NCBI RefSeq assembly: GCF_033546935.1
Contig: NZ_CP137854.1
Span: 1,674,001-1,738,000, forward strand
Length of the DNA stretch: 64,000 bases
Reading direction: 5' to 3'
DNA from: Xylophilus sp. GOD-11R
Lineage (GTDB): Bacteria; Pseudomonadota; Gammaproteobacteria; Burkholderiales; Burkholderiaceae_C
Shown one piece after another: positions 30,888 through 58,330 of the stretch. Both the position numbers and the translations under genes were made by a program. How positions within the stretch are numbered: position 1 is the first letter of the stretch; each line of letters opens with the position of its first letter. Under the pieces are notes generated by a model. It had not been told where the DNA came from and searched no databases. It was given only the letters and a program-made list of their open reading frames with translations.

Positions 30888-32885
<1,998 letters not shown>

Positions 32886-32886
32886 T

Positions 32887-33275
32887 CTCCCCCAGGCTTC
32901 GCACTTCGTGTCTCCGCCTACCCCCTTCCGGGGGCGGCTTGCTGGCTCGGCGTACCCTCGCCGCGTCGCCCCCGAGGCAGTCGGCTGCGCTGCGCGCTGG
33001 CCTCGGGGCTGGACTCTCCCCCAGGCTTCGCACTTCGTGTCTTCGCCTACCCCCTTTCCGGGGGCGGCTTGCTGGCTCGGCGTAGCCTCGCCGCGTCGCC
33101 CCCGAGGCAGTCGGCTGCGCTGCGCGCTGGCCTCGGGGCTGGACGCTCCCCCAGGCTCCGCACTTCGTGTCTCCGCCTACCCCCTTTCGGGGGCGGCTTG
33201 CTGGCTCGGCTTGGCCTCGCCGCCTCACCCCTGGGGCAGTCGGCTGCTTCGCCGGCCTCCACGGATGGGCGGAGG
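32887..33275. repeat. Three tandem copies of a ~129-bp GC-rich repeat after acs
   Basis: Units start at 32887, 33016 and 33146 with CTCCCCCAGGCT (spacing 129 and 130 nt). The first two are nearly identical and the third decays after about 33215. Each unit has two dyads: a C5-TTCC-G5 type stem (CCCCCTTCCGGGGG, varying slightly between copies) and GCCCCCGAGGC paired with GCCTCGGGGC about 20 nt on (32968-33009 in copy 1). The array starts one nt after the acs stop. Its first 66 nt match the repeats inside the btuF 3' end. It contains no credible gene; open frames across it are an effect of composition. Confidence 0.92.
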
Positions 33276-33361
33276 TCTGCCTCTGATTGAGCCGAGCTGC
33301 TTACATCGCCAGTCGGGGCTGCCGCCAGAATGTCGGTTTGTGTTTTGCAGGACTAAACGCC

Positions 33362-33841
33362 ATGGCCCGAACCATTTCCTTACTTGTCATCGCATTGCTC
33401 ATCGTGCTGCTGGCGGTGCTCAACTGGACGACGCTGGCCTCGCCCACGCTGATCTCGCTGGGCATCACCTCGGTGACCGCGCCGCTGGGGCTGATCATGC
33501 TGGGGCTGACGGTGCTGCTGGCCGTGCTGTTCGTGGCCTATGTGCTCACGCTGCAGGGCTCGGTGCTGATGGAAAACCGTCGGCACAACCGCGAGCTGCA
33601 GTCGCAGCGCGAACTCGCCGACAAGGCCGAGGCTTCGCGCATCACCGAGATGCGTTCGGCGCTCGACCTGCAACTGCAGCAGCAGTCGATCGACCTGCGC
33701 AACGTGCGCGACGGCCTGCTGGCACGCATCGACCGGCTGGAGCAGACCGTCGACGCCCGGCTGGACCAGACCGACAACACCACGGCGGCCTACCTTGGCC
33801 AGATCGAGGACCGCATGACGCGTGGCGGTCCGGTGCTCTGA
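33362..33841 (+). CDS. LapA-like membrane protein with C-terminal coiled coil
   Basis: A 159-aa protein with two strongly hydrophobic helices (residues about 4-24 and 38-65). A long cytoplasmic helix with coiled-coil character follows (RRHNRELQSQRELADKAEASRITEMRSALDLQLQQQ; LDQTDNTTAAYLGQIEDRM). The two-helix N terminus with a short loop containing NWT resembles LapA/DUF1049 proteins, whose E. coli member works with LapB in lipopolysaccharide control. No lapB is adjacent, so the role stays open. The start at 33362 is chosen because it begins the first helix. Confidence 0.75.
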   Translation: MARTISLLVIALLIVLLAVLNWTTLASPTLISLGITSVTAPLGLIMLGLTVLLAVLFVAYVLTLQGSVLMENRRHNRELQSQRELADKAEASRITEMRSALDLQLQQQSIDLRNVRDGLLARIDRLEQTVDARLDQTDNTTAAYLGQIEDRMTRGGPVL

Positions 33842-42843: not shown

Positions 42844-42936
42844 GGCGTCGCCGATTGTAGGGTTCTGAAACATCGGCTCGATGAATCCGTTGCAGCCATG
42901 GCGTTTCGCCAACAGTTGCTCGCATAGAATCGCCGC

Positions 42937-43150
42937 CGTTGGTGCTCGTGCGGTCGGCTCTCGGCCGCGCAGTTCAACGGGAAGCAGGAGGGTTGTCCGC
43001 CCAAGGACGCGCCCGACCTGCGCTGCCCCCGCAACGGTCGGTGGAAGAGCCTGCGTCAGCAGCTCGTGACGGTTTCAATCAGCCACTGGAAGCATCGTGC
43101 TTCTGGGAAGGCGAGACCAACAGGTTCCACCCAGCCCGGATACCGGCCAA
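42937..43150 (+). promoter_or_regulatory. Cobalamin riboswitch upstream of btuB
   Basis: An adenosylcobalamin aptamer in the leader of the B12 operon. In order are a TTGGTGCTCG 5' stem, AACGGGAAGCAGG, CTGCCCCCGCAACGGT, GCCACTGG...CTGGGAAGGC, and the B12 box AGCCCGGATACCGGCC at 43133-43148. All match the riboswitch consensus, with the usual order and spacing. The 113 nt down to the btuB start would hold the expression platform; CGCTTT/AAAGCG (about 43170-43187) can form a stem there. High B12 should lower expression of btuB and the genes coupled to it. Confidence 0.96.
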
Positions 43151-43263
43151 CGACGTGGCTTCGCCGCAGGGCGCTTTCACCGGAAAGCGATGTGCGACGA
43201 GGCCTTTCGTGCCCACGACCGGCGGGGAAGCCGGGCAGGGCCGCACCCCTCTGTCGCTCCATC

Positions 43264-45090
43264 ATGAAAATCCGTCTCTCCCGTATGGCGCGGGTCGCCG
43301 CCTGCCTGTCGCCCCTGGTCCTGCACGTCGCCGCGCACGCCCAGTCCACCGGCTCCGCGCTGACCGACACCGTGGTCACCGCCAACCGCACCGAACAACC
43401 CTTGTCGGACCTTCTGTCCGACGTTTCGATCGTCGACCGCGAAACCATCGCGCGCAGCGGCGCTGTCGGCGTGGCCGACGTGCTGGCCCGCCTGCCCGGC
43501 ATCGAAGTGGCCCGCAACGGCGGCCCGGGCAACACCACCAGCGTGTTCCTGCGCGGTGCCGAATCGCGCTTCACGGCGGTCTACCTGGACGGTGTTCGCA
43601 TCGACTCGCAATCGACCGGCGGCGTGCAGTGGGAGCAGATTCCGCTGGCGCAGATCGACCGCATCGAGGTGCTGCGCGGCCCGGCCGCCGCGGTGTACGG
43701 CTCGGACGCCATCGGCGGCGTGATCCAGCTGTTCACCCGCAAGGGCGAAGCCGGCTTCCATCCCTACGTGGGCATCGGTGGCGGCACGCACGGCACCGGC
43801 CGACTGGAGGCGGGCGCCAGCGGCACGGCGGGCGTGGACAACGCCTTCGACTACTCGCTGGGTGTGGCCCGCGAGATCAGCAACGGCTTCAATGCCCGAG
43901 AGGTCGCCACGCAGAACCCCGACAAGGACGGCTACCGCAGCACCTCGGCCAACGCGCGGCTGGGATTTCGCATCGACGCACGCAATCGTCTGGACGCCAC
44001 CTTTCTGGCCAACGATCTCGAGTCGCAGTACGACAACTCGCGGCGCCTCAACGACAAGTCCAACCACACGCTGCGCACCGCCGGCCTCACCTACACCGGC
44101 CAATGGACCGATTTCTGGAAGGCGACGGTGCAGGCGACCGCTTCGCGCAGCGTCTACGAAACGCAGCCTTCGGTCTACCGCACCGAGACCGAGCTGCACA
44201 ACTACCTGTTCCAGAACGAGTTCCGTTTCGGCGAGCACCTCTTCACGGCAGCGCTGGAGCGCCGCGAGGACAACCTGCAGAACACGCCGATCGATCGCGA
44301 CCGTTCGCAGAACGGCATCGCGCTCGGCTACGCCCTGAAGCACGGCGCCCACACGCTGCAGCTGCACGGCCGCCATGACGACGACAGCGAGTTCGGCGGC
44401 AAGAACACCGGCAGCGCGGCCTACGGCTACGCCATCAATTCGAACTGGCGCGCGACCGCGTCGGTGGGCACGGCCTTCCGCGCGCCCACGCTCTACCAGC
44501 GCTTCTCCGAATACGGCCTGGGCAGCCTGCGTCCCGAGACCTCGCGCAACGTGGAAGCGGCGCTGCACTGGTCGCAGGGCGCCAGCAGCGCCAGCGTCAC
44601 CGTCTACCGCAACAAGGTGGACAACCTGATCAGCTTCGGCGCAGCCGGTGGCTGCGGCTCCACCTTCGGCTGCTACCGCAACACCGCCCACGCGCAGTAC
44701 GAAGGCGTGACCTTCGCCGGCGCCCACAAGCTCGGCGCCTTCGCCCTGCGCGGCTCGCTGGACCTGCAGGATCCGAAGGACGAGGACACCGGCCGCCAGC
44801 TCGCGCGTCGGGCCAAGCAGCATGCGGTGCTCGGTGCCGACACCCGCTTCGCCGGGGTCGATGTCGGCGCGGAAATGCAGGCTTCCGCCCATCGCTGGGA
44901 CAATGCGGCCAACACCACCCGCCTGGGCGGCTACACGCTGTTCAATCTCTATGCCAGCACACGCATCGCCCGCGACTACAGCCTGGTCGCTCGTATCGAC
45001 AACCTCGCCGACAAGTTCTATCAAACGGCCAACACGTACGCCACTGCCGGCCGCGTGTTGTACGTCGGCGTGAAATGGGCGCCGCAGTAA
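43264..45090 (+). CDS. btuB: TonB-dependent vitamin B12 outer-membrane receptor
   Basis: A 608-aa protein with a signal peptide (residues 1-26, ending AHA) and a TonB box in DTVVTANR, as in E. coli BtuB. The plug domain has VADVLARLPGIEVARNGG, TSVFLRGAESRFTAVYLDGVRI and IEVLRGPAAAVYGSDAIGG. A 22-strand-type barrel follows, ending in VGVKW plus a short tail. It lies 113 nt after the cobalamin riboswitch. The longer open frame upstream is riboswitch sequence. Its end overlaps cobB by 16 nt. Confidence 0.96.
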   Translation: MKIRLSRMARVAACLSPLVLHVAAHAQSTGSALTDTVVTANRTEQPLSDLLSDVSIVDRETIARSGAVGVADVLARLPGIEVARNGGPGNTTSVFLRGAESRFTAVYLDGVRIDSQSTGGVQWEQIPLAQIDRIEVLRGPAAAVYGSDAIGGVIQLFTRKGEAGFHPYVGIGGGTHGTGRLEAGASGTAGVDNAFDYSLGVAREISNGFNAREVATQNPDKDGYRSTSANARLGFRIDARNRLDATFLANDLESQYDNSRRLNDKSNHTLRTAGLTYTGQWTDFWKATVQATASRSVYETQPSVYRTETELHNYLFQNEFRFGEHLFTAALERREDNLQNTPIDRDRSQNGIALGYALKHGAHTLQLHGRHDDDSEFGGKNTGSAAYGYAINSNWRATASVGTAFRAPTLYQRFSEYGLGSLRPETSRNVEAALHWSQGASSASVTVYRNKVDNLISFGAAGGCGSTFGCYRNTAHAQYEGVTFAGAHKLGAFALRGSLDLQDPKDEDTGRQLARRAKQHAVLGADTRFAGVDVGAEMQASAHRWDNAANTTRLGGYTLFNLYASTRIARDYSLVARIDNLADKFYQTANTYATAGRVLYVGVKWAPQ

Positions 45091-46409
45091 ACACGCCGGC
45101 CCGCTGCGCCGCGTTGCTCGTGGCGGCCCCGGCTTCCGGCCAGGGCAAAACCACGGTGGCGGCCGCGCTCGCGCGCTTGCATGCGCGCGCCGGCCGCAAG
45201 GTGCGGGCTTTCAAGGTGGGCCCGGACTTTCTCGACCCCTGCTGGCTGGAGGCGGCCACCGGCGCGCCGGTGCATGCGCTCGACCTGTGGATGGTGGGCG
45301 AGGGCGGTTGTGCCGCCGCGCTGCACGCCGCCGCGGCCGACTGCGATCTGCTGGTGATCGAAGGCGCGATGGGCCTGTTCGACGGCTCGCCCAGCGCCGC
45401 CGATCTGGCGCAGCGCTTCGGCATTCCGGTACTGGCGGTGATCGACGCGTCGAGCATGGCCGGCACCTTCGGCGCGCTGGTTTTCGGGCTGCGGCACTAC
45501 CGCGCCGACATGCCCTGGGCCGGCGTGCTGGCCAACCGGGTCGCCAGTCCGCGCCACCGCGACATGCTGCGCGAGGGCCTGCGCGAGCCCGGTGACTGGC
45601 TGGGGTCGCTGCCGCGCAGCGCCGACTGGGCCCTGCCCGAGCGGCATCTGGGCCTGGTGGCCGACCTGCCAGCCAGCGAAGTGATGGCGCGAATCGACGC
45701 CGCCGCCGACGCGCTGTCCGCCACGCCCCTGGCCGCCTTGCCGCTGGAGCGCTGGGCGGTGGAGTTCCCGGCGCCGGATGCCGTCGATGCCCTGCCGCCG
45801 CTGCTCGCCGGCCGGCGCATCGCGGTGGCGCACGACGCGTCTTTCGCCTTCGTCTACCGCGCCAATGTCGACACGCTGGAGGCGCTGGGCGCCAGCGTCG
45901 CCTTCTTCTCGCCGCTGGCCGGCGAGGCACTGCCCGCCTGCGATGCGGTGTGGCTGCCGGGAGGCTATCCGGAGCTGTATCCGCAGCAGCTCGCCGCGGC
46001 CACCGCTACCCGCGACAGCCTGGCCGCGCACATCGATGCCGGCAAGCCGGTGTGGGCCGAGTGCGGCGGAATGATGGCGCTGATGGACGAGATCTGCGAC
46101 ATGGAAGGCCGCAGCCACCCTGGCTGGGGCCTGCTGCCGGGGGTGACCCGCATGCACCGCCGGCTGGCGGCGATCGGCCCGCAGCAGCTGGCGCTCGATG
46201 CCGGCACGCTGCGCGGTCACACCTTCCATTACTCGACCGCCGCGTCGCCGCTGCCGGTGGTGGCGCGCACCGCGCGCCCGGACGCCGCCGCCGCGCACGA
46301 CGCGGGCGAGGCCGTCTATGCGCACGAGGGCGTGCGGGCGAGCTATTTCCATGCGTGGTTCGCGTCGTGCCCGGGGGCCATTGCGGCCTTGCTCGGCGGC
46401 CGGACATGA
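45075..46409 (+). CDS. cobB: Cobyrinic acid a,c-diamide synthase
   Basis: A 444-aa ATP- and glutamine-dependent amidase acting on the a and c carboxylates of cobyrinate (or the hydrogenobyrinate analogue in the aerobic route). The N-terminal dethiobiotin-synthase-like ATP domain has ASGQGKTT. The C-terminal class I glutamine amidotransferase domain has its Cys in WAECGGMMAL and a His in FHYS/FHAWF. It overlaps btuB by 16 nt and cobU by 4 nt, showing tight coupling to the riboswitch-controlled leader gene. Confidence 0.95.
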   Translation: MGAAVNTPARCAALLVAAPASGQGKTTVAAALARLHARAGRKVRAFKVGPDFLDPCWLEAATGAPVHALDLWMVGEGGCAAALHAAAADCDLLVIEGAMGLFDGSPSAADLAQRFGIPVLAVIDASSMAGTFGALVFGLRHYRADMPWAGVLANRVASPRHRDMLREGLREPGDWLGSLPRSADWALPERHLGLVADLPASEVMARIDAAADALSATPLAALPLERWAVEFPAPDAVDALPPLLAGRRIAVAHDASFAFVYRANVDTLEALGASVAFFSPLAGEALPACDAVWLPGGYPELYPQQLAAATATRDSLAAHIDAGKPVWAECGGMMALMDEICDMEGRSHPGWGLLPGVTRMHRRLAAIGPQQLALDAGTLRGHTFHYSTAASPLPVVARTARPDAAAAHDAGEAVYAHEGVRASYFHAWFASCPGAIAALLGGRT

Positions 46410-46963
46410 CGCCCACGGTCGTCGCCTCCGAACTGGTGCTGGGCGGGCAGCGCAGCGGCAAGTCGCGACGGGCAGAAATGCTGGCCGTCGCCTGGCTGTC
46501 GCGCGCGCCTTCGCACCGGGCGATCTTCGTGGTGACGGCGGAGCCGGGCGACGAGGAGATGCGCACGCGCATTGAGCGCCATCGTGCCGACCGAGCAGAG
46601 CGCCTGCCGGGCGCCGCCACGGTGGAGGCGCCTCGCGCGCTGGCGCAGGCGGTGGCGCTGCATTCCGATGCGGCCACGCTGCTGGTCGTGGATTGCCTCA
46701 CGCTGTGGCTGGCCAACCTGCACGGCCTGGACGACGCGGCCCTGGCGGGCGAAGCCGATGCGCTGGGCGAGGCGGTGGCCCTCGCGCCGGGGCCGGTGGT
46801 GCTGGTCTCCAACGAAATCGGCCTCGGCGTGGTGCCGATGGGCCGCGAGGTGCGCGCCTATGTCGACGCGCTCGGCCGCCTCAACCAGCGGCTGGCCGCG
46901 GTCTGCGAGCGGGTGACGCTGGTGGCCGCGGGCTTGCCGCTGGCGCTCAAGGGAAGCTTGTGA
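46406..46963 (+). CDS. cobU: Adenosylcobinamide kinase / guanylyltransferase
   Basis: A 185-aa bifunctional enzyme that phosphorylates adenosylcobinamide and adds GMP. The P-loop GGQRSGKS (about 14-21), the guanylyl-accepting His in RIERHRADR, VDCLTLWLANL and VSNEIGLGVVP all match CobU. The start ATG at 46406 overlaps the cobB stop. The open frame continues far upstream through cobB in another reading and is not used. It is coupled to btuF by TGATG. Confidence 0.94.
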   Translation: MTPTVVASELVLGGQRSGKSRRAEMLAVAWLSRAPSHRAIFVVTAEPGDEEMRTRIERHRADRAERLPGAATVEAPRALAQAVALHSDAATLLVVDCLTLWLANLHGLDDAALAGEADALGEAVALAPGPVVLVSNEIGLGVVPMGREVRAYVDALGRLNQRLAAVCERVTLVAAGLPLALKGSL

Positions 46964-48012
46964 TGACGATTTTTCGCGGCGTCTTGCTGGCGCTGTCGCT
47001 GGCGGCCCTGCCGGCCGCCCACGCCGCCGGGCCGGCGACCGTCATCTCCACCGTCACGGATGGCCGGGGCCGCGAGGTGGCGCTCACCCGGCCGCCGGCC
47101 CGCATCGTGAGCCTGCTGCCCTCGCTCACCGAAAGCGTCTGCGCGCTCGACCAGTGCCAGCGCCTGGTCGGCGTGGACCGGTATTCGAATGCGCCGGCCT
47201 TCGTGCGCGGACTGCCGCAGGTCGGCGGCGGGCTCGATCCCAACATCGAGGCCATCGTGGCGCTCAAGCCCGACCTGGTGCTGCTGGCGGTGTCGTCGCG
47301 GGCCAGTGCGCGGCTGGAGGCGCTGGGCATTCCGGTGGTGGCGCTGGAGCCCAAGACGCATGCGGACGTGCGCCGGGTGCTGGGTCAGCTCGCCACCCTG
47401 CTGGGCCTGAAGACGGAAGCCGCCGACCGGCTGTGGCGCGAGATCGATGCCGGCGTGCAGGCGGCTGCGCAGTCGTTGCCGGCGAGCGCGCGTGGCACGC
47501 GGGTGTACTTCGAGGTCAGCCGCGGGCCTTATGCGGCGGGTGAGTCTTCTTTCATCGGCGAGACGCTCACGCGCCTGGGCGTGCGCAACGTGGTGCCGGC
47601 CGCGCTCGGGCCGTTTCCGCGGCTCAACCCCGAATACGTGGTGCGGGCCGATCCCGACGTGATCATGGTCGGCAACCGCAGCATGCAGGCGATGGCGGCG
47701 TACCCGGGCTGGCAGACGATGCGGGCGATCAAGGCGGGGCGGATCTGCGTGTTCGGGCCGGATGTGTCGGACGTGGTGGTACGGCCCGGGCCGCGCATGG
47801 CCGAAGCCGCGCGGGCGATGGCTTCATGTCTCGTGGATAAAGCTCCACCCCAGGCTGCGCACTCCGTGCTTTCGCCAACCCCTTCCAGGGGCGAGCTGGT
47901 GGATACGGCTACACCCCAGGCTTCGCACTTCGTGTCTGCGCCATCCCCTTCCAGGGGCGAGCCGGCCGCTTCGGGCGGCCGTGCGCGGCGGCTCCCGGAG
48001 AAGACCGAGTGA
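46963..48012 (+). CDS. btuF: Periplasmic corrinoid-binding protein BtuF with repeat-derived C-terminal tail
   Basis: A 349-aa class III substrate-binding protein for the BtuCD importer. A signal peptide (1-21) precedes a mature domain with RIVSLLPSLTESVCAL, LVGVDRYSNAP, GGLDPNIEAIVALKPDLVL and a C-terminal lobe. The normal fold should end near RMAEAARAMASC (about residue 290). The remaining ~55 residues come from two in-frame 66-nt repeat units (47846-47977) of the family found after acs, giving PPQAAHSVLSPTPSRGE and TPQASHFVSAPSPSRGE. The original stop seems to have been displaced. The ORF then overlaps btuC by 4 nt. Confidence 0.92.
   Translation: MTIFRGVLLALSLAALPAAHAAGPATVISTVTDGRGREVALTRPPARIVSLLPSLTESVCALDQCQRLVGVDRYSNAPAFVRGLPQVGGGLDPNIEAIVALKPDLVLLAVSSRASARLEALGIPVVALEPKTHADVRRVLGQLATLLGLKTEAADRLWREIDAGVQAAAQSLPASARGTRVYFEVSRGPYAAGESSFIGETLTRLGVRNVVPAALGPFPRLNPEYVVRADPDVIMVGNRSMQAMAAYPGWQTMRAIKAGRICVFGPDVSDVVVRPGPRMAEAARAMASCLVDKAPPQAAHSVLSPTPSRGELVDTATPQASHFVSAPSPSRGEPAASGGRARRLPEKTE
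47846..47977. repeat. Two in-frame 66-bp repeat units within btuF
   Basis: Units start with CACCCCAGGCT at 47846 and 47912. The core (CAGGCTTCGCACTTCGTGTC, then CCCCTTCCAGGGGCGAG) matches the first half of the 129-bp units after acs. The period of 66 nt is a multiple of 3, so both units are translated in the same frame as a 22-residue repeat. Copy 2 is closer to the acs array than copy 1. Confidence 0.9.
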
Positions 48013-49007
48013 GGCGTCGCGCGGGTTGGCTGGCGGCTTTCCTGCTGCTGGCATCGGTGGCGTTGCTCGCGCTCGGCGCGGCCATCGGCAGCACGGGACT
48101 CGACAGCCTGCAGGCGATGCGGCGTGATCCGGTCGCCTGGCAGATCGTGTGGGATATCAGGCTGCCGCGCACCGCCGGGGCCTGGGTCTGCGGCGCGCTG
48201 CTGGGGCTGGCGGGCGCGGTGGCGCAGGGCCTGTTTCGCAATCCGCTGGCCGAACCCTATCTGCTGGGCAGCGCCTCGGGTGCATCGCTCGGCACCGCGC
48301 TGGCGCTGCTGGTAGCGGGGCAGGCGGCGACACGCTCGCTCAGCAGCGACTGGCTGATCCAGCTCGGCGTGACCGGCGCGGCCTTCGTCGGCGCGGTGCT
48401 GGCGGTGCTGCTCACGCTCACCCTGGCGCGCGGCGCGCAGCACACGCTGCGGCTGCTGCTGGGCGGTGTGATCGTCGGCGTGGTGCTCGGCGCGGCGAAG
48501 GACCTGGTCACGCTGGCCGCGCCCCACATCCTGGAGGCGATGCAGGGCTTCACGCTCGGCAGCACCGCCTTCCTCGGCTGGCAGGCGGTGGTGCTGATGA
48601 CCACGGTGCTGGCCGGCTGTCTGCTGGTGTCGGCGCTGCTGGCGCCGGTGCTCGACGGCCTGACGCTGGGCGAGGCCACCGCCGCCAGCCTGGGCCTGGC
48701 GCTGCCGGCGCTGCGCGCGGCGCTGGTGGCGGTGCTGGCGCTGTGCACCGCCACGGCGGTGGCCAACACCGGGCTGATCGCCTTCGTCGGCCTGGCCGCG
48801 CCGCACCTGGTGCGTCCGCTGGTGCGGGTAACGCATGCCGGCCTGCTGCTCTTGTCGGCCGGCATGGGCGGTCTGCTGCTGATGGCCTCGGACCTGCTGG
48901 CCCGCAGCCTGTTCGCGCCGCAGGAGCTACCGGTCGGCGTGCTGACCGCGCTGCTCGGTGGCGGCTATCTGCTTTGGCTGATGCACCGGCGGGGAGGGCG
49001 GCGATGA
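48009..49007 (+). CDS. btuC: Vitamin B12 ABC transporter permease
   Basis: A 332-aa FecCD-family permease with about ten hydrophobic helices. Conserved blocks include LGLAGAVAQGLFRNPLAEPYLLG, SASGASLG, FTLGSTAFLGW and GLIAFVGLAAPHLVR, the last near the ATPase-contact L-loop. The start is a GTG at 48009 overlapping the btuF stop (GTGA). It works with BtuF and BtuD encoded on either side. The shift of the btuF stop by repeat units evidently preserved this overlap. Confidence 0.94.
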   Translation: MRRRAGWLAAFLLLASVALLALGAAIGSTGLDSLQAMRRDPVAWQIVWDIRLPRTAGAWVCGALLGLAGAVAQGLFRNPLAEPYLLGSASGASLGTALALLVAGQAATRSLSSDWLIQLGVTGAAFVGAVLAVLLTLTLARGAQHTLRLLLGGVIVGVVLGAAKDLVTLAAPHILEAMQGFTLGSTAFLGWQAVVLMTTVLAGCLLVSALLAPVLDGLTLGEATAASLGLALPALRAALVAVLALCTATAVANTGLIAFVGLAAPHLVRPLVRVTHAGLLLLSAGMGGLLLMASDLLARSLFAPQELPVGVLTALLGGGYLLWLMHRRGGRR

Positions 49008-49777
49008 GCGCCCTGGCCGCCCGTGGCCTGCACGCCCGGCTGGGGCGTCGCGAGATCCTGCACGGCATCGACCTGACGCTGCCCGCCGGCCGCTGGACAT
49101 CCATCGTCGGCCCCAACGGCGCGGGCAAGTCGACCCTGCTCAAGGTGCTCGCCGGCCTGCTGGCACCGAGCGCCGGCCACGTCGAGCTGCAAGGCCGGCC
49201 GCTGACCGGCTGGAGCGCCCGCGAGCGCGCCCGTGCGTTGTCGTGGCTCGGCCAGGGCGAGGGCGCGGACGGCGGCGCCGACGACCTCGCGGCCTGGGAC
49301 GTGGCCATGCTCGGCCGCCTGCCGCACCGGCCCTGGCTCGCGCCGCCTGGCCCGGCCGACCGCGCGGCGGTGGAGCAGGCATTGCGCGCCACCCATGCCT
49401 GGGACTGGCGCGCCCGGCCGCTGGGCGAGCTTTCCGGCGGTGAACGCCAGCGGGTGCTGCTGGCGCGCGCCCTGGCGGTGAGCGCGCCGGTGCTGCTGAT
49501 GGACGAGCCGCTCGCCAACCTCGACCCACCCCACCAGTCCGACTGGCTGACGACGGTGCGCGCCCTGGCCGCCGGGGGCGCCACCGTGGTGAGCGTGCTG
49601 CACGAGATCGGCTTCGCGCTGCACGCCGACCACGTGGTGGTGCTGCAGGCCGGCCGGGTACTGCACGCCGGCGCGCCGCACGACGAGCGCACCCACGCGG
49701 CGCTGGAGTCGGTGTTCGACGGGCGCATCGCCATCCGTCCGCTGGACCAGGGCTGGGCGGTGGTGCCGCGCGCCTGA
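49004..49777 (+). CDS. btuD: Vitamin B12 ABC transporter ATP-binding protein
   Basis: A 257-aa ABC ATPase: Walker [10 protein letters not shown] (about 37-45), signature LSGGERQRV, Walker [13 protein letters not shown] and the H-loop His in VLHEIG. It closes the btuFCD import module. Its ATG overlaps the btuC stop by 4 nt. A 29-nt gap with an AAGAGAGAA ribosome binding site separates it from cobO. Confidence 0.94.
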
Positions 49778-49806
49778 ATCCGAAGATCCAAAGAAGAGAG
49801 AACCGC

Positions 49807-50376
49807 ATGCAGATCGAAACACCGCCCACCGCCAAGCCCTACGAAAAACCCGAGGGCGAACGCCGGGGCCTGGTCATCGTCAACACCGGCGACGGCAAGG
49901 GCAAGAGCACGGCGGCCTTCGGCCTGGCGCTGCGCGCGCACGGCCGGGCCAAGCCGGTGCGCATCTTCCAGTTCATGAAGGTGCCGTCGGCGCGTTTCGG
50001 CGAACACCGCATGTTCGAGCAGCTCGGCATTCCGATCGAAGGGCTGGGCGACGGTTTCAGCTGGAAGAGCCAGGACCTGGAACGCAGCGCGCAGCTCGCC
50101 CGCGACGGCTGGCAGACAGCGCGTGCGGCGATCCTGTCGGGCGAATACTTTCTCGTGGTGCTCGACGAGATCACCTATCCGCTGATCTACGGCTGGCTGC
50201 CGCTGCAGGACGTGCTCGACACCCTGCGCCAGCGGCCGCGCGAGGTGCATGTGTGCCTGACCGGCCGGCGCTGCCCGCCGGAGATCGTGGAGCTGGCCGA
50301 CACGGTGACCGAGATGGCCATGGTCAAGCACGCCTTCAAGGCCGGCGTGCCGGCGCAGCGGGGCATCGAGGATTGA
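49807..50376 (+). CDS. cobO: Corrinoid adenosyltransferase (CobO/BtuR type)
   Basis: A 189-aa enzyme that adds the 5'-deoxyadenosyl group to cob(I)alamin precursors. The P-loop [17 protein letters not shown] (about 28-44), [23 protein letters not shown] and [15 protein letters not shown] are diagnostic of the CobA/CobO/BtuR family. It is followed by cbiB with a 4-nt overlap that uses a TTG start. It can serve both de novo and imported corrinoids. Confidence 0.95.
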
Positions 50377-56931: not shown

Positions 56932-57906
56932 ATGACCGCAGACCGCCGCCGCTTCATCGGCACCAGCTTCGCCCTCGGTGCCATCGCCGCCTCCGGCCGC
57001 GCCTTCGCCCAGGCCTCCGGCCAGGTCGTCCACATGGTCGTGCCCTTCGCCTCCGGCGGCGTGCAGGACATCCTGGCGCGTTCCATTTCCACCGAACTCG
57101 GCCTGGCCCTGGGCCAGACCGTGCTGGTGGAAAACCGTGCCGGCGCCGGCGGCACCGTGGGCACCGGCTACGTCGCCAAGGCCGCACCCGCCAGCAACAC
57201 CATGGTGATGGCCGCGGCCAGCCACAACATCGCCGGCACGCTCTACACCAAGCTGAGCTATGACCCGCAGAAGGACTTCGCGCCCATCGCCCACATCGGC
57301 ACCGCCGACTACGTGCTGATGATCCATGCCGACGTGCCGGCCAAGACCGTGGCCGAATACATCCGCCATGCCAAGGCCAACCCCGGCAAGCTCAACTACG
57401 CCACCAGCGGCGTCGGCAGCGCCACCCACCTGGCCATGGCGTATTTCAACGGCAAGGCGGGCATCGACGTCGTCCACATTCCGCTCAAGGCGACCGGCGA
57501 GGCGATCAACGAGGTGATTTCCGGCCGGGCGCAGGCGGTCATCGCGGCGAGCATCGGGGCGCTGGCGTTCGCCAACGATGCCCGGGTGCGGCTGATCGGC
57601 GTTACGTCCACCCAGCGGTCCAAATACCTGCCTTCGGTGCCGACCATCGCCGAAAGCGGTCTGCCCGGCTACCGCTTCGACTCCTGGTTCGGCCTGCTCG
57701 GCCCCGCCGGCACGCCGCCCGCGCAGATCGCCAAGGTGAACGCCGCCGTCGGCAAGCTGCTGGAAGACCCGGTGATCCTGGAGCGGCTCGACAAGCAGGG
57801 CATCCGCCCGCAGGCGATGAGCGCCGGCGATTTCGGCAAGCTGCTGGCGACCGACTACGTGCGCATGGCCGAAGTCGTCAAAGCCTCCGGCGCCACGGTG
57901 GAGTAG
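56932..57906 (+). CDS. Bug-family (TctC) periplasmic substrate-binding protein
   Basis: A 324-aa member of the Bordetella uptake gene family, large in Burkholderiales. The signal peptide begins DRRRFIGTSFALG, with an RR pair that could be read by Tat. The mature part has the family marks VHMVVPFASGGVQDILAR, VENRAGAGGTVG, YATSGVGSATHLA and ESGLPGYRFDSWFGLLGPAGTP. Ligands are usually small carboxylates; no tripartite permease genes are adjacent, so it is an orphan. A tandem repeat array begins at the base after its TAG stop. Confidence 0.93.
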   Translation: MTADRRRFIGTSFALGAIAASGRAFAQASGQVVHMVVPFASGGVQDILARSISTELGLALGQTVLVENRAGAGGTVGTGYVAKAAPASNTMVMAAASHNIAGTLYTKLSYDPQKDFAPIAHIGTADYVLMIHADVPAKTVAEYIRHAKANPGKLNYATSGVGSATHLAMAYFNGKAGIDVVHIPLKATGEAINEVISGRAQAVIAASIGALAFANDARVRLIGVTSTQRSKYLPSVPTIAESGLPGYRFDSWFGLLGPAGTPPAQIAKVNAAVGKLLEDPVILERLDKQGIRPQAMSAGDFGKLLATDYVRMAEVVKASGATVE

Positions 57907-58330
57907 TGAGCCCCTCGGCTTTTTCACTTCGCTTCGCTGCGTGTAAACGCCATCCCCCAAGGGGAAGGCTTCGCCGAGTCCAGGGAAACCCTGGCCTGGT
58001 GAGTTGTGTGCCCCTCGGCTTTTTCACTTCGCTTCGCTGCGTGTAAACGCCATCCCCCAAGGGGAGGGCTTCGCCGAGTCCAGGGAAACCCTGGCCTGGC
58101 GAGTTGTGTGCCCCTCGGCTTTTTCACTTCGCTTCGCTGCGTGTAAACGCCATCCCCCAAGGGGAGGGCTTCGCCGAGTCCAGGGAAACCCTGGCCTGGC
58201 TCTACTTGGATATGAGCGCTTTCGGGTGGCGGCGCCCGGTGTGAGCCCCCCCTAGGGGGAGGGCTTCGCCGAGTCCAGGGGCCCTGGGCTGGCTCTACGG
58301 GAACATGGGCGCCATCTGGGGGCGCCCGCT
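57907..58330. repeat. 100-bp tandem repeat array plus degenerate units after the Bug gene
   Basis: Units begin with CCCCTCGGCTTTTTCAC at 57911, 58011 and 58111: exactly 100 nt apart and nearly identical (two differences between units 1 and 2). Each contains CCCCAAGGGG and CCAGGG-AAA-CCCTGG stems. Unit 3 passes into a ~93-nt degenerate unit, with GGCTCTAC recurring at 58198 and 58291 and GGGAGGGCTTCGCCGAGTCC at 58252. The array starts directly after the Bug stop and fills most of the 516-nt gap before cobT. No gene is supported in it. Confidence 0.93.

Follow-up and report, generated by a model that had tools for sequence, protein, structure and literature searches.

The DNA analyzed here, a 64,000-nt stretch referred to below as the window, carries btuF and, overlapping its end, btuC (Table 1). 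The btuF product scored above the cut-off of the TroA_like model and below the cut-off of the BtuF model itself. TRF reported a single tandem array at the 3' end of btuF (47833-47962; period 66, 2.0 copies, 85% matches, no indels), and a comparison of its two 66-nt units showed that they are identical at 56 of 66 positions and that both are read in frame, as an earlier reading made from the letters of the window alone (the sequence-only reading) had claimed. That reading had placed the repeats at 47846-47977; the array is real, but its position was about 13 nt off, since the periodicity begins within the VDKA codons. These first codons of unit 1 are probably ancestral btuF sequence, judging by relatives that have CL-x-(D/E)-K-A. 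The peptide predicted within the repeat tail includes LVDTATPQASHFVSAPSPSR, and the first part of the sequence that follows unit 2 (GCCGCTTCGGGCGGCC) resembles, when compared by eye, the 3' module of L042, another copy of the repeat family described below. The GTGA in which the btuF stop and the btuC start overlap was intact, and the arrangement for translational coupling is thus kept, again as had been proposed. A terminator scan of the btuF end returned one site only, inside btuC and at chance level. A cobalamin riboswitch (RF00174) lies at 42923-43165 (+), upstream of the gene run that holds btuF, and the long ORF after the riboswitch (43264-45090) reads like a TonB receptor.

Table 1. Features of the btuF locus and of the related array in the window
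Feature	Position	Strand	Basis or remark
Three-unit non-coding array, same repeat family	32886..33247	+	First core 5 nt past the stop of acs (acetate-CoA ligase)
btuF, periplasmic B12-binding protein, 349 aa with repeat-encoded tail	46963..48012	+	PF01497; PDB BtuF homologues
Presumed ancestral BtuF part, through the final helix and K-A codons	46963..47844	+	Orthologue ends; AlphaFold2 helix 279-293
66-nt unit 1, VDKAPPQAAHSVLSPTPSRGEL	47833..47898	+	TRF and unit-unit comparison
66-nt unit 2, VDTATPQASHFVSAPSPSRGEP	47899..47964	+	TRF and unit-unit comparison
Remainder of the btuF tail	47965..48009	+	At the protein level common to P0001 and P0002
GTGA, btuF stop TGA overlapping btuC start GTG	48009..48012	+	
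btuC, FecCD permease	48009..49007	+	PF01032

The repeats lie beyond the part of the protein that is expected to fold. The vitamin B12-binding proteins listed from PDB align up to BtuF residues 287-290 and the Pfam match ends at residue 266, while in the AlphaFold2 model, which resembled periplasmic binding proteins in a fold comparison, two BtuF chains among them, the last helix spans residues 279-293. From residue 301 onward the block means of pLDDT were 58, 50, 48, 46 and 48. Because the fold ends near residue 293 and pLDDT is low from residue 301 on, the final 55 or so residues are predicted to be disordered and to lie outside the fold, which supports the earlier estimate that the BtuF fold ends about 55 residues before the stop codon.

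We compared the 3' ends of btuF at 80 orthologous genome loci, one of which (L140) gave no readable junction. In 48 of the 79 readable junctions the protein has a short tail, 22 residues counted from RPGPR and typically ending in K-A-P. The btuF repeat begins exactly after K-A-P, at the codon where these 48 orthologues stop, so the expectation that relatives end near the MASC residues was borne out. By eye, a homologous tail lacking the repeat was found neither in the 79 junctions nor in the 120 proteins that were listed out of 7999 matches. Two of these listed database proteins, P0001 and P0002, carry a single unit, amounting to 32 residues after KA(P/S), compared with 54 (32 + 22) in the present protein. 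No repeat tail was found in BtuF of the six congeners searched. Short variable tails extend past the K-A-P point in some relatives (CLVEKSAKRQPGKAE in G003 and CLVDKAPRQDGKKP in P0008), and BtuF tails of 65-68 residues with another sequence occur at L102, L124 and L132; L135 has a scrap with the same start as the latter tails.

The repeat is not confined to btuF. A BLAST search with the 132-nt btuF segment gave 53 matches, itself included, in the whole genome of 5,127,500 bp, and a 20-nt core allowing at most 3 mismatches matched 54 times genome-wide, compared with one match for a reversed-pattern control; places with a weaker core (L063, L066, L067 and L070-L074) lie outside these 54. The repeat family is thus real, and the array after acs belongs to it. 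Copies occur in clusters of 1-5, in tandem and head to tail in one orientation, with a spacing of 33-174 nt within arrays. A single unit is about 96 nt long as inferred from the P0001 and P0002 proteins, and 99 nt in L042. Over 57 nt, 48, 52 and 50 of the 54 copies are open in the three sense phases, so an open frame in btuF or in any other gene that a copy enters, such as panC (see below), is unremarkable by itself. Because a family mostly free of stops makes read-through easy, one could argue that the tail is a spurious in-frame repeat or an assembly frame error. However, the same type of tail is present in P0001 and P0002, the frame joins btuC through GTGA, and membership in the family is statistically clear; we consider this explanation extremely improbable and, in view of the relatives and the number of repeats, regard it as refuted.

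We then related the copies to genes, which were called with a home-made codon model around the 54 copies, grouped into 36 clusters. The count of cores inside and outside ORFs that the sequence-only reading had called for gave 34 clusters outside called genes and two inside, in btuF and panC. All 34 non-coding clusters are oriented in the sense of the upstream gene, and in each the first CCCCAGG-like sequence (at most 1 mismatch) lies 1-14 nt past the upstream stop. When only cores with at most 3 mismatches were counted, 26 of the 34 clusters were within 15 nt of the stop; the other eight have a degenerate first unit, as judged by eye. Random combinations of intergenic position and strand in the window were sense-oriented in 36% of cases and also within 15 nt in 3.5%. 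The same docking rule held in 40 of the 42 clusters examined in three congeners, in a sample made up of 20 regions for the 29 places of G002, 12 regions for the 39 places of G001 and all 8 places of G003. Both exceptions are in G002, one being 123 nt from the stop (L226) and the other in the opposite orientation (L231).

The second coding case is the ORF at genome positions 3025833-3026744 (L062, 634-1545), which was identified as panC; its usual stop has been lost, and about 24 residues are encoded by a further member of the repeat family. In nine other genomes panC ends with LIDNLE followed by 1-9 residues, five of the nine having a single residue there. The panC gene of the source genome continues instead as ASAHPQATHFVSSPTPHRGRLAGSA and stops inside the element. 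The elements in btuF and panC are read in the same phase, the first base of the core being offset by one from a codon start in each gene.

Taken together, these results make it probable that the btuF tail is the translated copy of a structured, dispersed repeat that normally docks in sense orientation just after stop codons, and that this copy inserted upstream of GTGA and was tolerated. The incoming element, stop-free and, at about 96 nt, divisible by three, would have landed between GTGA and the final helix of BtuF, adding 32 residues. With entry on the 5' side of GTGA and an in-frame length, both the helix and the btuF-stop/btuC-start pair would have stayed intact and the coupling to btuC would have been kept. 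An in-frame tandem duplication of 66 nt, or the arrival of a dimer, would then account for the present 54 residues. Since P0001 and P0002 carry one unit only, the second unit may have arisen by duplication in situ; short tandem dimers with a similar spacing exist elsewhere in the genome (L041, L043, L046 and L056), and the btuF dimer may therefore have arrived ready-made.

A comparable case was found in a second lineage. The DNA of the btuF tail in Acidovorax defluvii (L124/L260), 84 nt long, matched 35 places in its own genome, itself included. Of the best 30 of these 35 matches, which were examined, 25 have an upstream called gene in the same orientation, whose end falls anywhere from 8 nt within the match to 26 nt ahead of it; the btuF copy itself is intragenic. 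At L267, L276 and L287 the upstream called gene has the opposite orientation, and at L271 none was called. At L271 and L276 frames that had been open for 502 and 339 codons run on in frame into the element and end within it, and the products of these genes gave matches to an ABC exporter and to a methyltransferase domain; L267 and L287 lie beside genes of the opposite strand, outside the docking rule. The two tails are alike in that a dispersed repeat which docks at stops, with a similar layout, is translated in frame as the end of btuF. The A. defluvii tail differs in its sequence and 3' module, is an independent event and has no 66-nt duplication. A stop-docked repeat has thus become the tail of BtuF on two occasions, each time from a different repeat sequence.

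The read-throughs bear on another order of events, in which the element first docked after the btuF stop, a later mutation removed this stop, and GTGA was re-formed or already lay downstream. The position of all 34 non-coding clusters, 1-14 nt past a stop, agrees with this order, and panC fits it as well, in that five of nine orthologues end one residue past LIDNLE and the element here begins about one codon later; in A. defluvii L271 and L276, likewise, only a few codons of the element are read before a stop within it. However, btuC starts at or near the btuF stop in many relatives, and docking after the stop would have parted the two genes, so that one would have to explain the GTGA at the present end by coincidence or by a second origin. 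We regard this order as rather unlikely for btuF and favor entry on the 5' side of GTGA. The sequence-only reading had placed the insertion at the original stop codon. That the repeat starts where 48 orthologues stop, and that the family docks at stops, speak for this, whereas the variable short tails of the near relatives and the weak order of branches in their clade make it less certain; such an insertion site is plausible. Whether or not it applies, the element sits upstream of the GTGA stop/start pair and not across it.

We also analyzed the relationships of the near relatives. The near clade, comprising the source genome, P0001-P0008 and G003, is firm (support 100/99), and the BtuF core of G003 is identical to that of P0006 (Xylophilus rhododendri), which makes Xylophilus the probable genus. 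Within the clade P0005, which was counted by eye as the bearer of a worn element, groups with P0002, and the branching order is poorly supported. Forcing the four element-bearing rows together cost 10.4 log units (AU p 0.056), so the tree neither supports nor rejects a single-clade history of the btuF element. The data do reject a three-row grouping that leaves out P0005 (p 0.0006), owing to the placement of P0005 next to P0002. As the four bearers were not recovered as a clade, one insertion followed by losses and several insertions are both possible.

The sequence-only reading had also called the element domesticated. If this is taken to mean a selected function, the tail might serve, for example, as a flexible spacer or as a tether of BtuF in the periplasm. 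Three members of the clade carry the tail (P0001, P0002 and the source genome), with a comparable one in Acidovorax, and its frame survived a length change of 66 nt. However, eight codons differ between the two units and all eight alter the residue, the tail is predicted to be disordered, and relatives lack it or retain short scraps (P0003, P0007 and L135). The comparison of the two units (18.5 synonymous and 47.5 non-synonymous sites) gave no indication that the tail is under selection; as the differences are few, this result fails to show constraint and does not prove neutrality. Domestication in this sense is therefore not supported, and we think it very improbable. The BtuF tail would rather be a tolerated, disordered periplasmic extension, in which selection mainly preserved the frame and the btuF-btuC coupling rather than the peptide.

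Outside btuF, the docked element would most likely act as RNA, a stop-proximal hairpin that shields the 3' end of the mRNA or slows terminating ribosomes. Of 102 elements from four genomes, we aligned the 42 that have a third hairpin of the form CCGGC-loop-GCCGG, the inner stem being the selection criterion. In the outer stem of nine pairs, 344 of 370 pairs were standard, compared with 105-169 for slid partners and a maximum of 288 for shuffles, and 15 extra Watson-Crick pair types were found. Alignment and structure were derived from the same sequences, which biases the result towards structure; the slides and shuffles serve as its control. None of the btuF copies belongs to these 42 covarying elements, and their third hairpin is of another type. 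The btuF stretch folded no better than shuffled sequences (z -0.59 and -0.21), and the same was true of the copy after acs (z -0.78); only three of seven folded pieces reached z -2.8 or lower. No family of Rfam 15 matched at E of 1 or below in 46000-50000 or 32700-33400.

For six genes, among them those that we take, by eye, to be ilvC, fliE, glyA and yidC, we compared 29 loci from five congeners; a seventh, which we read as ftsZ, gave matches only and no locus. In G003, the closest of the congeners, yidC and fliE have a hairpin followed by a T-run, resembling an intrinsic terminator, soon past the stop and carry no element. In the source genome an element lies between the stop and such a terminator at both genes, and at ilvC the terminator is gone. 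G001, G002 and G005 also carry docked elements or variants of them at ilvC and fliE; all of these observations were made by eye. The possibility that the element replaces an intrinsic terminator was thus rejected, as the terminator is kept further downstream and was lost only at ilvC. Because the terminator is retained beyond the repeat, the element appears to have been added at the stop, between stop and terminator.

Several known systems share some of these properties. The Rickettsia palindromic elements (RPEs; Ogata et al. 2000, 2002) are described as short palindromic mobile repeats read in frame in unrelated proteins, and nearly half of the reported RPEs are inside ORFs, according to the available text of PMC10969869. 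Insertion in frame with preservation of the host protein is also what we see in btuF, panC and the btuF of A. defluvii; in contrast to RPEs, 34 of 36 clusters here lie just past stops and only two are coding, both as C-terminal tails, and the likeness drawn here is one of description. BRE (Hot et al. 2011) is a G+C-rich repeat of about 90 bp, found in tandem and in variable copy number, with some copies in coding sequences, in Betaproteobacteria that include Acidovorax and Polaromonas (PMC3110155, available text). Compared by description, it may share with the present family the tandem arrangement (here 1-5 copies per cluster), the presence of some coding copies (here two of 36 clusters) and a unit of similar length, but the spacing within the present arrays varies from 33 to 174 nt. 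BRE, described from the same bacteria, is probably a relative. Docking at stops, a fixed orientation to the upstream gene and the btuF case are absent from that description of BRE, as far as it is available.

Position relative to the stop recalls the palindromic REPs of E. coli (Liang et al. 2015), for which those lying at most 15 nt past a stop were reported to stall ribosomes and lower translation. Depending on the survey, 260 of 496 (about half) or 446 of 4072 (11%) are that near a stop (PMC12306157, available text). Measured by the same distance, all 34 non-coding clusters here and 40 of 42 congener clusters are stop-proximal. Copies that encode protein do not appear in the available description of the E. 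coli REPs. By analogy with the latter, the target of the hairpins docked outside btuF is probably the mRNA end or the terminating ribosome. Many copies of the present family contain, by eye, CGCCTACCCCC next to a hairpin; its complementary strand reads GTAG. REPs tagged with GTAG or CGTC are mostly downstream of coding regions, with intragenic units noted, and among them dimers of opposite orientation predominate, in contrast to the head-to-tail arrays of one orientation found here; the available text of that account (PMC3733652) does not include Acidovorax or Comamonadaceae. No RAYT gene flanked by the repeats was found in the source genome, where a single weak Y1_Tnp match (26.8 bits, 587839-588126, L039) has its nearest core copies at 573409 and 663176, so that none flanks it. 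Among the papers listed in searches of open-licence PMC literature, none dealt with repeat-encoded BtuF tails or with strict stop docking in Comamonadaceae, which is weak evidence of absence.

The btuF locus provides a clean example of a non-coding repeat that would have turned into part of a protein while a pair of overlapping genes stayed intact, in the same gene in two lineages. The near-absolute sense docking at 1-14 nt, in turn, makes the role of stop-proximal repeats, be it 3'-end protection, control of ribosomes or targeted mobility, testable in one genome. As a conjecture that we ourselves hold to be quite improbable, Comamonadaceae might carry structured mobile elements that insert specifically at stop codons in sense orientation, targeted through the transcript or its termination and not through a DNA motif. 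Hosts would then repeatedly gain C-terminal tails when the stop falls on the far side of the element, and overlapping pairs such as btuF-btuC would force the coding outcome.

The window also contains an array of three 100-nt copies with a different repeat sequence and similar hairpins (57901-58200). It starts at the end of a called gene (56932-57906), and it therefore seems to be docked at a stop as well.
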